Below are positions 9,558 to 15,026 of a stretch of 64,000 nucleotides of DNA, piece after piece. The translations under genes were made by a program, and so were the position numbers. The notes under the pieces are model-generated. The model saw only the letters and a program-made list of their open reading frames with translations, did no database searches and was not told the origin of the DNA. The DNA lies in contig NZ_AUJY01000008.1 in the NCBI RefSeq assembly GCF_000424465.1, forward strand, positions 62,001-126,000, read 5' to 3'. The number at the start of each line of letters is the position of its first letter. Position 1 is the first letter of the stretch. This DNA comes from Butyrivibrio hungatei NK4A153 (GTDB taxonomy: Bacteria; Bacillota; Clostridia; Lachnospirales; Lachnospiraceae).

Positions 9558-9903
9558 TTTTTTTCCTCCTCGTCTCATAAGAAATATTCAATTCATAAGA
9601 AATAAAATTACTAAATGATTTGCTTGTAAATTAATAGGCCCCTCAACCTATTGTGGTTTTGATACAAGATTTCATTCAATGAATACATTATATACTATTT
9701 ATCATAGAAATAATAGTGATATTTAGCCACTTTAACCCGTTAAAATATAAAAATTTTATGAAATTATCTTTCTTTTTCACATAAGGAAAACGACGCTTAC
9801 ACAAATTAGAGTGTTTTTGCACCTGCTTGCATTTAATTTTAAATTGTGTACAATATAATATGATTCGAAGTTGTTTTATTTTTTGGTTGATTATGAGGTT
9901 TAT
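9558..9903. promoter_or_regulatory. AT-rich divergent promoter region
   Basis: Serves the small minus-strand gene and the DUF3737 gene. Plus-strand promoter: TTGCAT (9827-9832), 16-nt spacer, TACAAT (9849-9854), with transcription expected near 9861. A TATAAT-like box on the minus strand lies at 9688-9693 with a poor -35. Nothing else recognised. Confidence 0.5.
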
Positions 9904-10746
9904 ATGAAGAATATTGTAGAGAACAAGCAGTTTGATGAGGAGAGAGCTCTTTATAATCTCACTGATGCAGAGGTTAGGAATTGTAGATTCGAAGGACCTG
10001 CAGACGGCGAGTCTGCGCTTAAAGAGGCAAGGGATATAAAGGTGGAAGAGTGCAGTTTTTCCCTAAGGTATCCACTTTGGCACGTGACGAACTTTGAGAT
10101 TGATAAGTCTTCTATGAATGAATTTACGAGGGCAGCTCTCTGGTACGATAAAAACGGAAAGATAAAGGATTCCAAGCTTGGCGGTATTAAGGCTCTTAGA
10201 GAGTGCAAGGATATAATCATCGAGAACAGCGATATTGTGTCTGAGGAGTTTGGATGGAAGTGTGACAACATCACGCTTAAAGATACGAAAGTTGAATCAA
10301 TGTATCTGTTCCTTGACAGTAAGAACCTGAAACTTGATAATGTCGAGATGAAGGGCAAATACTCTTTTCAATATGTTGAAAACATGGAAATATCAAATTG
10401 CAACTTTGATACCAAGGATGCTTTTTGGCACACTAAGAACGTTACGGTAAGAGACAGCATCGTTAAGGGTGAGTACCTTGCATGGTATTCGGAAGGGCTT
10501 ACACTTATTAACTGCAAGATAATAGGAACGCAGCCGCTTTGCTACTGCAAGGACCTTAAGCTTATCGATTGTACGATGGAAGGCTGCGATCTTTCTTTTG
10601 AATATTCGGATGTAGAAGCGAGTATAATAGGTAGCATAGATTCAGTCAAGAACCCGAGATCGGGCAAAATAACAGCAGATGCCGTCGGTGAGATCATCAC
10701 GGAGGCACCTGTAATAGAATGCAGCGGAGAGGTTATCATAAGATGA
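9904..10746 (+). CDS. DUF3737 family protein (beta-helix repeats)
   Basis: A 280-residue protein built from about ten short repeats of the type (K/N)-(D/E)-hydrophobic-x-hydrophobic-(E/D)-(N/D)-(C/S), for example KDIIIENSDI, DNITLKDTKV, KNLKLDNVEM and ENMEISNCNF. This suggests a right-handed parallel beta-helix and matches DUF3737. The upstream in-frame TTG at 9871 lies only about 10 nt after the predicted transcription start, and GAGGT at 9895-9899 supports the ATG at 9904. Its stop overlaps the patatin start (ATGA), so the two are translationally coupled. Function of the family is not established. Confidence 0.8.
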   Translation: MKNIVENKQFDEERALYNLTDAEVRNCRFEGPADGESALKEARDIKVEECSFSLRYPLWHVTNFEIDKSSMNEFTRAALWYDKNGKIKDSKLGGIKALRECKDIIIENSDIVSEEFGWKCDNITLKDTKVESMYLFLDSKNLKLDNVEMKGKYSFQYVENMEISNCNFDTKDAFWHTKNVTVRDSIVKGEYLAWYSEGLTLINCKIIGTQPLCYCKDLKLIDCTMEGCDLSFEYSDVEASIIGSIDSVKNPRSGKITADAVGEIITEAPVIECSGEVIIR

Positions 10747-11573
10747 AAAAAGGGCTTGTTTTGGAAGGCGGAGCAATGAGAGGCATGTTCACTTGCGGCG
10801 TGCTTGATGTTTTTCTGGAAGAGGGGATTGAATTTGACGGAGCCGTGGGAGTTTCCGCGGGAGCTACGTTTGGCTGTAATATCAAGTCAAAGCAGCACGG
10901 AAGAGCGCTCAGATATAATAAGAAATACTGCGCGGACAAAAGATATCACAGCATCTCATCTCTTTTGACAACAGGCGACATCTACAACGTAAAATTTTGC
11001 TACGACGAACTTCCTTACAAGCTTGATAAATGGGACATTGAGACATTTAAGAATTCACCGATGGAGTTCTACTGCGTTGCAACGGACATAACAACCGGCA
11101 AGCCCGTATATCATAAGTGCCTTACCGGGGAAAAAGACGACATAATCTGGATACAGGCATCCGCTTCAATGCCGCTTGTATCAAGACCTGTAGACATAGC
11201 CGGTGGCAAATACTTAGACGGCGGAATATCAGATTCCATCCCGCTTAAGTTTATGGAAGAGCAAGGCTACGATAACAACCTCGTCATTGAAACCCAGCCT
11301 GTCGACTACATCAAGAAGCCGCAATCATATATGCCGCTTGTCCGCTTTATGCTCCGCAAATATCCCAACATGATTAAGGCGATGGAAGAGCGCTACATCA
11401 TGTATAACGAGGAGAAGAAGTATATCAGAGAAAAAGAGCTCGCCGGCGAGATTAAAGTCATCCGTCCCGACGCGCCCTTAAATATCAGTCCTGTCGAAAA
11501 AGACCCTGCACAGCTCCAGCGTGTCTATGACCTGGGCAGAGCCAAAGCACTTGAATATTTGTCAAAGCAGTAA
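10743..11573 (+). CDS. Patatin-like phospholipase family protein
   Basis: A 276-residue serine hydrolase of the RssA/YjjU-like patatin group, expected to act on lipids or acyl esters in the cytoplasm or at the inner membrane face. It has the oxyanion loop GGAMRG (9-14), the nucleophile elbow GVSAG with Ser38, and the catalytic Asp159 in DGG. The start overlaps the DUF3737 stop by the ATGA arrangement. The substrate cannot be told from sequence. Confidence 0.9.
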   Translation: MKKGLVLEGGAMRGMFTCGVLDVFLEEGIEFDGAVGVSAGATFGCNIKSKQHGRALRYNKKYCADKRYHSISSLLTTGDIYNVKFCYDELPYKLDKWDIETFKNSPMEFYCVATDITTGKPVYHKCLTGEKDDIIWIQASASMPLVSRPVDIAGGKYLDGGISDSIPLKFMEEQGYDNNLVIETQPVDYIKKPQSYMPLVRFMLRKYPNMIKAMEERYIMYNEEKKYIREKELAGEIKVIRPDAPLNISPVEKDPAQLQRVYDLGRAKALEYLSKQ

Positions 11574-11637: not shown

Positions 11638-12900
11638 TTACTTGGAGAGCAGATCCATGTAAATATGTGCATTATCTGTCTTTATCATATTGATCGCAAA
11701 CGCGTCATATTCTGACGGATCGCCCAGCTGCGAAGTAATGCTTGATTCGTCATATCCGTTGCCAATCACGATGGTAAGATCAAGATTGAGGGAGTAGGCG
11801 TACAGCTGCAGCAGCGGCTGGTACGTCTGGCTAAGGAAATCATCTTCGGTACTGTAGATGTTTAGCCACACCTTTTTTCTTGGATGCTCATCTTCATTAA
11901 GCTGGTGCGTTACTTCTTCATACGGCGCTCTCGGATCGAGGTGCGATATATAGTTTTCACTTGTAACGGCAAGGTTTAGTGCCAGGAAGGCGCGCTCCCT
12001 GTCGGCATAGTAATAGTCAGCATCGCGAAGAACGTTTCCGGCATCGTCTATCACACCGATTCCGGTGTTTACATCAACTCCGTCAAGACAATTTCTTAGA
12101 ATGCGCAGCGTAAGGTATGCCTGAATTTCGGCTCTTTGGCTGATACTTCCGCAAAAGCCGTCCTTTATGGCAGCTACGCAGTCTCCGTTTGCATCATATC
12201 CAAATACGGGAACACCGTTACTGTGAGCCCATTTATCAAACATCTTAAGTCCCATTCCGTCGTTGTTGGAAATAATAACATCTATGCTGTCGCCAAACAG
12301 GCTTACCCATTCATCAATGGCAACGCCCGCAGCTTCCGCATTCCAGGTTGCGCCATTAGGAGATGCCATCTCTTTTGACGCAAGCTCTCTTATGATATAG
12401 TCTTTTCCCGCTATTGTGATGCTTCCGTCTGTTACGATCTTAGAACTTCCATCGAGGTTTAGTCCGACGGCATCGGGAATTATCACATCATCTTTTTTTA
12501 CGGCAGTTCCGCAAGCTTTTCTTGCTCCGCGCGTTCTTGCGGCGGATATATTGTGCCCCGTATCGCCTATGGCAAGGACATAGCCGATGATTCCGTCACC
12601 GTTTCTGTCAAGCGAAGCATCGCGGCCCATTATGTATTTGATGATCATCTCGCCTTGCAGCGTTGCACCCTGCTCCATATCAACACCGACGTAGTATGTA
12701 TTATTGTTAAAAGTTATGGCGTCGTAATCAATTTCGCCGGTCTCGCTGTTTGAAGGCTGTCTGTTAAACCAGACAACAGGCTTGTCCTTATTTGAGATAT
12801 TCGCACCGGTCATCGAATTGCTTGCCGTTTCGGCGCAAGCGGAAGAAGTTACCATTCCGGCTAAGAGAAGCGGGATAATAATTTTTTTTCCAAAATTCAT
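11638..12900 (-). CDS. Exported galactose-binding-type sugar-binding protein, circularly permuted
   Basis: A 420-residue exported protein with a signal peptide at 1-23 (SSAC|A or ACA|E; lipoprotein or SPase I substrate). Residues 38-320 follow MglB from its internal strand VPVVFFNKEP onward: PVVWFNRQP (41-49), calcium loop DRNGDGIIG (98-106), GHNISAAR (115-122), ATWNAEA (184-190), SNNDGMG (211-217), PVFGYDAN (231-238). Residues 343-420 then match the part that normally comes first: VWLNIYSTEDDFLS (344-357) like VTIYKYDDNFMS, and AFAINM (400-405) like ALAINL. Ligand residues H116, R122, W186, N212/213, D236 and D353 are spread over both parts. Last gene of a GGDEF/HD-GYP operon, 12 nt after the HD gene, with AAGGAG before its ATG. 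Confidence 0.85.
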   Translation of the reverse strand: MNFGKKIIIPLLLAGMVTSSACAETASNSMTGANISNKDKPVVWFNRQPSNSETGEIDYDAITFNNNTYYVGVDMEQGATLQGEMIIKYIMGRDASLDRNGDGIIGYVLAIGDTGHNISAARTRGARKACGTAVKKDDVIIPDAVGLNLDGSSKIVTDGSITIAGKDYIIRELASKEMASPNGATWNAEAAGVAIDEWVSLFGDSIDVIISNNDGMGLKMFDKWAHSNGVPVFGYDANGDCVAAIKDGFCGSISQRAEIQAYLTLRILRNCLDGVDVNTGIGVIDDAGNVLRDADYYYADRERAFLALNLAVTSENYISHLDPRAPYEEVTHQLNEDEHPRKKVWLNIYSTEDDFLSQTYQPLLQLYAYSLNLDLTIVIGNGYDESSITSQLGDPSEYDAFAINMIKTDNAHIYMDLLSK

Positions 12901-12912
12901 ACGATCATCTCC

Positions 12913-13845
12913 TTACAGATTGTCTTCCCTGAAATCGTTTGCGAGGAAAAGAGCCATCTTATCTTTTACACTTCTGGTGCAACCCTCGACTTTTTCGCGC
13001 GGGATCGAGCAGAATATCTTGACGATTTCCTTATCAAGCTGCGAACCTGCAGCAATCTTCAAAGAACCGATAGCGTCGTCGTAGGATCTCGAGGGCTTGT
13101 AGGACCTTACCATGACTATCGCGGAATACGTGTCGGCAACTGCTATTATCCTCGATGCGAGAGGAATTTCGTTGCCTTTAAGTCCGTAGTAGCCGTTTCC
13201 GTCAATTCGCTCGTGATGGTACAAGATCCAGTCGGATATATTGTCAAAAGAGTGAATTTGCTTAAGTACCTGCACACCGATGTTTGTGTGCTTTTTTATA
13301 AGATCCCATTCGCCGCTTTCAAGTTTTCCCGGTTTGTTCAGGATCTTGCTCGGGATTCCGAGTTTTCCGACATCGAGGAAAAGAGCCGCATAGCGCAGAT
13401 TCTCACATTGAATTGTCTTTTTATATTTGTACGGAAGGTAGTCATATATGAGCATGGCAATCTCCATAACGTGGATGGAGTGGCCGTCGAGGTTGGTGTC
13501 GCGCGCTTCGATCATTCCGATCAGGCTCTCTGCGATCTCCTTTGTCTTGGACTTCACATTTGTTATGACTATGAATATCCAATTGGTGAAAAGAAACATT
13601 ATCAGGGACAGAATGACCACTACAATCCCGCTTAGGATATTGTCGCGGCTAATGAACATTGCAGCTACAAAGAAGAAGCATGTGGCTATGTAGAGACAAT
13701 AGGAAGCATAGAGGATCACTTTTTTCTTCCCGTCAAATGTAGTAATGACATCTCTGTGAATGGTGAAAAAAGAGATACACTCCAGAGTGGTGTAGACCGC
13801 TATTATGATTCCACATAAAATAAGGGCTTTTACAACAATGATCAT
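12913..13845 (-). CDS. Membrane HD-GYP-type protein with lost metal ligands
   Basis: A 310-residue protein. Three hydrophobic segments (about 4-26, 43-65 and 70-96) are followed by an HD-GYP-like domain (105-285). The canonical HD pair reads L157-D158 (AALFLDVGKLG), GYP reads GYY (218-220), and the late ADxYDA motif reads ADTYSA (237-242). H122, H186 and HHE (210-212) are kept. At least two metal ligands are therefore gone, and c-di-GMP hydrolysis is doubtful. AAGGAG lies 7 nt before the ATG. It sits between a GGDEF gene (32 nt) and the sugar-binding gene (12 nt), which suggests it couples the external sensor to c-di-GMP turnover or acts as a binding partner. Confidence 0.85.
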   Translation of the reverse strand: MIIVVKALILCGIIIAVYTTLECISFFTIHRDVITTFDGKKKVILYASYCLYIATCFFFVAAMFISRDNILSGIVVVILSLIMFLFTNWIFIVITNVKSKTKEIAESLIGMIEARDTNLDGHSIHVMEIAMLIYDYLPYKYKKTIQCENLRYAALFLDVGKLGIPSKILNKPGKLESGEWDLIKKHTNIGVQVLKQIHSFDNISDWILYHHERIDGNGYYGLKGNEIPLASRIIAVADTYSAIVMVRSYKPSRSYDDAIGSLKIAAGSQLDKEIVKIFCSIPREKVEGCTRSVKDKMALFLANDFREDNL

Positions 13846-13877: not shown

Positions 13878-15026
13878 TCAGCCTACCGTGATGCGGTTTC
13901 TTCCCTGTTTTTTGGATTGGTAGAGAGCTTCGTCGGCACGCTTATAGATTGCATCCATGTCTTTGTCATCGCCCGTGACGGCGGTAACACCCAAAGAAGC
14001 GTTAATGCCGCTTAGTTCGCCAATCTGCACTGCATTTAGATTTGTAAGAATATATTGCAAAAGAGATATTACATTTTCCATGTTTTTCTGACCGCGTATG
14101 AGCATTATATACTCATCGCCGCCGAGTCTTCCTGCGATGCTGAATTTGTCGCGCACGGCTCTTTCTGTAAAAGACCATTTCTCAAACATATCAATATTTA
14201 AGGCTTCTACTATGGTGTGTGATGTCGTCTGGATTGCCTTGTCACCCATCTGATGTCCGAGTTTGTCGTTTATCTCTTTGAACTTATCAAGATCCAGAAG
14301 ACATATGGCGAGGAATTCATCGCGCCTTATCGGATCTTTTATGATCTGATCGGCTATCGCAAAAAAACGAGCTCTGTTAAGAAGATCCGTCAAAGTATCA
14401 AAACTTGAGCGTATCTCGAGGTCGCGCTGAATCTGAATATTTTTTTGAAGAGTATAGAACTGTGTCATTTTATTGTGCTGGAAGAAGTAATGCAGAATAA
14501 GCGAAAGAGCAAGGAAAACAATTATATTGTACATATCAAGTTCTGCGAGGGAATGTGGTTTGAACTTGAACGAAGTGTATAAAAAGACACTGCAATAGAA
14601 GATAAGAAGTACAGTAAATCTTATCATGGTATCGATATATGTAACGGAAAGAAGGACAACTATGACAAGATACATAGTTGCGGCAAGATAGGGCTGCGAG
14701 ACCGATGAGAATATTCCGAAAACAATCAGGATAATTGAGCTTGCATGAACAAAGAAAGTTGAGTACCTAGCACAGAATTTTTTGAGCACAATAAAAACGA
14801 CCTCAAAAACCAGAGACAGGATCATAAACGAGTAATACATGTTGAAATTTCTTCTTGTCAGCCCAAACTCGTTCAAAAGACACAGGATCATAAAGGTGAG
14901 GGTCATCAAAAGAAGCCAACTGTTAATAATTAACAGGTGCGTGTAATTTGTGTCATGTATGAGTTTTTTACAATCATCATAGCGATGCTTTTCGAATCCG
15001 TAGTAGTTTATCTTTTGCCAATACAT
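13878..15026 (-). CDS. Membrane diguanylate cyclase (GGDEF)
   Basis: A 382-residue protein with about six hydrophobic segments between residues 28 and 185, no recognisable sensor domain, a short linking helix, then a full GGDEF domain (about 205-380). The active loop is intact: RLGGDEY, with FDTLTDLLNRARF and LLDLDKFKEINDKLGHQMGD upstream and ADEALYQSKKQGRN at the end. The usual RxxD inhibitory site five residues before GGDEY is absent (DKFS there), so product inhibition may be missing. First gene of the operon, with GAGGT before the ATG. It should make c-di-GMP at the membrane. Confidence 0.92.
   Translation of the reverse strand: MYWQKINYYGFEKHRYDDCKKLIHDTNYTHLLIINSWLLLMTLTFMILCLLNEFGLTRRNFNMYYSFMILSLVFEVVFIVLKKFCARYSTFFVHASSIILIVFGIFSSVSQPYLAATMYLVIVVLLSVTYIDTMIRFTVLLIFYCSVFLYTSFKFKPHSLAELDMYNIIVFLALSLILHYFFQHNKMTQFYTLQKNIQIQRDLEIRSSFDTLTDLLNRARFFAIADQIIKDPIRRDEFLAICLLDLDKFKEINDKLGHQMGDKAIQTTSHTIVEALNIDMFEKWSFTERAVRDKFSIAGRLGGDEYIMLIRGQKNMENVISLLQYILTNLNAVQIGELSGINASLGVTAVTGDDKDMDAIYKRADEALYQSKKQGRNRITVG

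Follow-up and report, generated by a model that had tools for sequence, protein, structure and literature searches.

A galactose-binding lipoprotein of the MglB type whose first part stands at its C-terminal end raises two questions: whether it is a natural circular permutant, and what such a protein does where no transporter gene adjoins it. We addressed both in Butyrivibrio hungatei NK4A153, in a 64-kb stretch of contig NZ_AUJY01000008.1 (hereafter the window) in which a 420-aa ORF at 11638..12900 (-) encodes the solute-binding protein (SBP). An initial annotation of the window had read this protein as a naturally circularly permuted MglB.

Residues 39–274 (12079..12786, -), which correspond to the segment that is internal and C-terminal in MglB, matched PF13407 with 62.8 bits over profile positions 80 to 256 only. 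Residues 342–411 (11668..11877, -), the segment that is N-terminal in MglB, matched PF18610 (E 2.3e-30; 105 bits, cut-off 36.8). A truncated PF13407 followed by a C-terminal PF18610 is the arrangement of the TpMglB-2-like family. Against the NCBIfam MglB equivalog, NF011924, the SBP scored 84.2 bits, which is below the cut-off of 420 and places it outside that group. Searched by itself, the C-terminal segment gave no match to PF13407 or to the NCBIfam MglB model. Separate profile searches had been suggested as a check on the permutation; they agreed with it for the main part, and for the C-terminal segment they gave the very absence of a match that had been named as evidence against it. We consider this absence to be outweighed by profile–profile alignment, in silico rotation, shuffling and the predicted structure. 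With hhalign, a profile of the C-terminal segment from 18 relatives aligned to columns 54–126 of six unpermuted SBPs (E 8.6e-5, but with a probability of only 60% for this short segment), and the main part aligned to columns 134–332. Joining the ends and rotating the sequence raised its score against an HMM of the six unpermuted SBPs from 52.7 to 74.4 bits at best, and the rotated protein gave one uninterrupted single-domain match running through the old ends; two relatives gained similarly. When the C-terminal segment was shuffled 300 times, the best score was 60.4, compared with 71.3 for the real segment.

Residues 342–420 are folded confidently in the AlphaFold2 model of the SBP (pLDDT 87.8, pTM 0.84), and the model is colinear with the TpMglB-2 structure from residue 33 to 420, so this segment is part of the MglB fold; we reject the possibility that residues 343–420 form a separate domain. 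Sequence-order alignment to the unpermuted MglB structures listed was limited to residues 26–325 of the model. Acquisition of the permuted segment from another gene has been raised as a possibility for this family on the basis of 13% identity (PMC4990184). For the window SBP we reject an origin in an unrelated gene, since hhalign, rotation and shuffles favour homology to the MglB N-terminus. A21 and C22 are invariant in the four aligned Butyrivibrio copies and, in our reading, would fit a relaxed lipobox. We conclude that the window SBP belongs to the known TpMglB-2 (PF18610) family, as a circularly permuted binding lipoprotein of the glucose/galactose type.

The permutation itself is not new, having already been published. 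The initial annotation knew of no well-described natural permutant of this fold; TpMglB-2 (Tp0684) of Treponema pallidum is one, with its structure solved (PDB 5jx2/6bgc/6bgd), its permutation described by Brautigam et al. in 2016 and a KD for glucose of 1.1 uM reported (PMC4990184). The subclass is called ‘Type Ic / Cluster Bc’ in that paper, which also reports relatives among spirochaetes and Gram-positive bacteria of the gut (PMC4990184). The window SBP shares the colinear permuted fold, and differs from TpMglB-2 in carrying about 14 extra residues within positions 139–157 and in having GGDEF and HD-GYP genes as neighbours rather than a permease gene.

PF18610 was found in four of 61 genomes in a sample of relatives (the source genome and three others, all among the 37 of the genus), in 45 of 397 genomes sampled from the family and in two of 398 sampled from the phylum. 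Named relatives of the window SBP occur in Butyrivibrio sp. M55 (93% identity), B. hungatei XBD2006 (81%), Butyrivibrio sp. LB2008 (71%) and the MAG RGIG8267 (64%). After duplicates were dropped (L087 = L006, L088 = L007, L098 = L005 and L166 = L100), five distinct Butyrivibrio loci were compared with 46 other permuted loci: 35 of the 45 non-own places in the family sample, one in the phylum sample and 10 of 14 named loci. The SBP genes of L021, L063, L075 and L169 were identified from all-frame ORFs. The 46 come from Lachnospiraceae, Oscillospiraceae, Erysipelotrichaceae and Olsenella, and the transporter-type proteins have the same part order as the window SBP at 53–59% identity. MglA and MglC genes adjoin the SBP gene at 42 of the 46; of the remaining four, one has MglA and then the contig end, two are cut by a contig end and one (L076) has neither. 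No related GGDEF or HD gene lies at any of the 46 within the stretch fetched. In contrast, no MglA or MglC gene stands beside the SBP at any of the five Butyrivibrio loci, which thus lack the MglBAC importer arrangement. In a tree built by a quick method and midpoint-rooted, with a warning of long branches, the five Butyrivibrio SBPs fall on one side of a well-supported branch and the 46 others on the opposite side, and the five have the longer branches. At L057, L058, L060 and L071, the permuted MglB-MglA-MglC operon is immediately preceded by an unpermuted MglB-like SBP gene, and both forms are thus neighbours there.

The survey of homologues thus bore out a shared order of parts, and it speaks against the idea that permutation serves to pass ligand state to a membrane partner: the 46 other members have the same order, 43 of them with an adjacent MglA gene. 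We therefore reject the permutation as an adaptation to c-di-GMP signalling. The membrane signalling partner that had been suggested is supported at the level of gene context. At all five Butyrivibrio loci the SBP gene is third in the order GGDEF, HD-GYP, SBP. In the window, a gene for a six-TM diguanylate cyclase (GGDEF; 382 aa, 13878..15026, -; PF00990 E 8.1e-30, with membrane helices from model and hydropathy) is followed after 32 bp by one for a membrane HD-GYP-like protein (310 aa, 12913..13845, -; PF13487 E 5.4e-27), and this after 12 bp by the SBP gene. Ribosome-binding sites are of the AAGGAG type, with AAGGAG itself in the 12-bp gap before the SBP. An SBP and a c-di-GMP enzyme are therefore encoded in one operon, without transporter genes. 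Upstream of the GGDEF gene there is a 10-of-12 promoter match (15104-15077); promoter-like sites between 11500 and 16000 are not in excess (9 found, 10.3 expected from shuffles). The 64-kb window contains no tRNA and no Rfam match at gathering score, and hence no known riboswitch. The module is flanked by two ORFs, one uncharacterised (9871-10746) and one for a patatin-like phospholipase with DUF6363 (10719-11573). Both flanking ORFs are present at all five Butyrivibrio loci, as judged by similar ORF starts, and the module therefore seems to have been inherited in place.

The SBP might instead be an orphan transporter subunit that hands its sugar to an ABC permease from another locus, with chance or regulatory convenience explaining why it stands beside c-di-GMP genes. 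The source genome gives this some room: it has 16 PF13407 hits, the window SBP included, and other sugar SBPs and ABC genes that the window SBP might serve, with MglA-like ATPases near PF13407 SBPs (L101, L102, L108, L111). One other family member, that of L076, also has no adjacent MglAC. However, when MglC of a transporter-type locus was used as query, the source genome gave at best a partial 96-bit match, compared with phmmer scores of at least 776 for adjacent MglCs (from a different program), and no cognate MglC was found beyond that match. The gene order kept at five of five loci, and the unrelated SBP families whose genes take the place of this SBP gene at 15 further loci described below, also argue against it. 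Overall we regard an orphan subunit as unlikely. L076 (G826:C1:783000-798000) is a second permuted MglB on a long branch, in a genome that also has a full mgl operon (L075); it is a possible independent orphan sensor.

The sugar pocket bears on both this reading and another. The ten glucose-contact positions were taken from Table 2 of PMC4990184. By alignment, nine of the ten appear to be kept in the window SBP as the TpMglB-2 or EcMglB residue, as a transporter subunit would also have it. The initial annotation's statement that ligand residues are mostly kept needs one correction, the loss of a contact Asp. The position of EcMglB D154 and TpMglB-2 D91 is codon 118 of the window SBP (12547..12549, -), and is occupied by Ile, Ile, Ile, Ser and Ile in the five Butyrivibrio copies and by Asp in 46 of the 46 others; the five thus lack both the transporter genes and the contact Asp that mark the transporter-type set. 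In E. coli MglB, this Asp bonds the anomeric hydroxyl of the sugar, and from its loss a C1-substituted sugar is a reasonable guess for the ligand in Butyrivibrio. At 210 positions the residue is conserved in 44 or more of the 46; all five Butyrivibrio SBPs differ at 22 of these, among them 118, 120, 252, 256, 350 and 354, which are sequence neighbours of contact residues. Longer branches and a lost contact residue would also be seen if the SBP were decaying after leaving a transporter and its adjacency to the other genes had no function. We consider this highly improbable, given that gene order is kept in five of five loci, that several of the changed residues adjoin pocket residues in sequence, and that SBP dN/dS (0.12–0.15) is similar to that of its two operon neighbours, the range for all three genes being 0.07–0.15 between the window and three relatives.

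The GGDEF protein carries the signature GGDEY at residues 302–306 (14109..14123, -), which agrees with GG[DE]E[FY], and on this motif it would be an active diguanylate cyclase. The signature is also GGDEY in L006 and L007, SGDEY in L005 and GGDEC in L100; in the 13 other loci compared, a set to which L167–L170 do not belong, it is GGDEF. In the model of this protein (pLDDT 87.2, pTM 0.61), six long helices lie at the N-terminal end, and there is no large outer domain to offer an SBP a docking site. Among full-length structural matches, ImcA of Pseudomonas aeruginosa ranks best (PDB 8wcn; TM 0.63–0.64 over 386 columns, 19–20% identity). S108, K156 and D164 are invariant in 22 of 22 loci, and from model and hydropathy we place them on outer loops. 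In the HD-GYP-like protein, Leu157 (13375..13377, -) replaces the His of the HD motif (FLDVGK). Of the 20 module HD proteins, 16 were aligned, and 15 of these have lost the His; L154 is the one that keeps HD. The five proteins of the permuted-MglB clade all read LD for HD, and GYY or GYH for GYP. An active HD-GYP phosphodiesterase has both motifs intact, and catalysis would thus be lost here. Since dN/dS is 0.07–0.15, the protein is kept despite its altered motif. It is probably a regulatory or c-di-GMP-reading partner rather than a phosphodiesterase.

Residues 1–201 of the GGDEF protein, its membrane part (14424..15026, -), served as a marker for other modules. As a query, it found 18 strong loci in 79 genomes of the genus and at least four further strong loci in the 397-genome family sample, where up to 8 candidates were scored in each genome, giving a set of 22 loci found, all with E <= 1.6e-44. 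An SBP gene is adjacent at 20 of the 22: permuted MglB at five, SBP_bac_1/8 at 10 (L133–L139, L154, L167 and L168), DctP at four (L131, L153, L155 and L169) and NMT1 at one (L132). L170 consists of GGDEF and HD genes only, and L156 ends 124 bp after the gene. An HD gene is adjacent at 20 of the 22, the exceptions being L155 and L156, and at L154 the SBP gene comes first. None of these SBPs, sought with four SBP queries, was adjacent at 12 weaker GGDEF matches. As background, the source genome has 28 GGDEF hits, four of which, the module included, have a PF13407 or PF01547 hit no more than 3 kb away. On the GGDEF tree (20 rows), SBP family changes at least four times, with weak support for the deepest forks. 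Taken together, the loci are consistent with a plug-in c-di-GMP receptor of Lachnospiraceae in which a conserved six-TM cyclase and a pseudo-HD-GYP protein take interchangeable lipoprotein heads from at least four unrelated families, the permuted MglB being one that has left its importer and whose pocket is remodelled for a changed ligand; for this full description, we see the chances as evenly balanced.

Some SBP_bac_8-type modules have further neighbours. At L133, the module adjoins an alpha-galactosidase-like gene (Melibiase_2 by Pfam), with similar-looking ORFs at L134, L137, L167 and L168, and some of these modules (L133–L139, L167, L168) have two additional membrane GGDEF genes nearby, assigned by Pfam in L133 only. 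This suggests galactoside sensing by some SBP_bac_8-type modules. In the source genome, L176:2592-4436 (contig C7) encodes a Peripla_BP_3/LacI-type sugar-binding domain fused to GGDEF; by eye it has no signal peptide, and it may therefore sense a cytoplasmic sugar. Also in the source genome, L174 (contig C9:22000-33500) is a cluster of genes in the same direction: one for an SBP_bac_8 lipoprotein, one for a methyl-accepting chemotaxis protein (MCP) and two for GGDEF proteins, of which one has a 7TMR-DISM match below threshold. Such a cluster, and the dual role of E. coli MglB (PMC4990184), would fit a further reading, in which the window SBP is a chemotaxis sensor acting on an MCP, as E. coli MglB does, while the c-di-GMP neighbours tune motility in parallel. 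The three-gene operon contains no MCP gene, however, and we think this reading improbable.

We favour, with fair but not high confidence, a three-gene sensory operon in which the SBP closes on its ligand, docks and changes c-di-GMP synthesis. The lipid-anchored SBP would close around a sugar or sugar derivative outside the membrane; the closed form may then dock on the cyclase or the HD-GYP protein, at their short outer loops, and docking would change synthesis of c-di-GMP by the cyclase, the direction of control and the ligand being, like the docking itself, what we infer. Set against this model are the imperfect GGDEF motif in two of the five permuted-MglB loci (L005, L100), the loci that have no SBP (L170) or no HD gene (L155), the cyclase's want of a large outer domain, and the other sugar SBPs and ABC genes mentioned above. 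A signalling role for the operon is nonetheless likely, and the Butyrivibrio SBP is probably a nutrient sensor rather than part of an importer.

Butyrivibrio are fibre-degrading gut bacteria, and the operon context suggests how they may couple outside nutrients to c-di-GMP. As a permutant, the window SBP is one more member of a known family; the context adds more. The 46 mostly transporter-linked and five c-di-GMP-linked permuted MglBs, with 22 positions that separate them, offer a comparison of importer with sensor, and four SBP families on one membrane cyclase form a natural series for direct head-swapping tests.

Activation of cyclases by SBPs is a recognised principle (PMC9602780), and domains of the PBP clan are reported in c-di-GMP proteins (PMC8846402). 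Like the permutation, SBP-driven cyclases are thus already known; the new element is a three-part layout whose SBP heads are exchangeable, and among the papers listed by searches of open-licence PMC literature, none was seen to describe an SBP/GGDEF/HD-GYP operon laid out in this way. The nearest parallel is NspS-MbaA of Vibrio cholerae, in which a binding protein in the periplasm regulates a membrane-bound c-di-GMP enzyme (PMC8967002), and the Butyrivibrio operon would, by analogy, follow the same logic. However, MbaA is a single GGDEF-EAL protein, whereas in Butyrivibrio the GGDEF domain belongs to a six-TM protein and the degenerate HD-GYP domain to another; the SBP of the Butyrivibrio-type module also belongs to a different family from NspS and is exchanged between loci.
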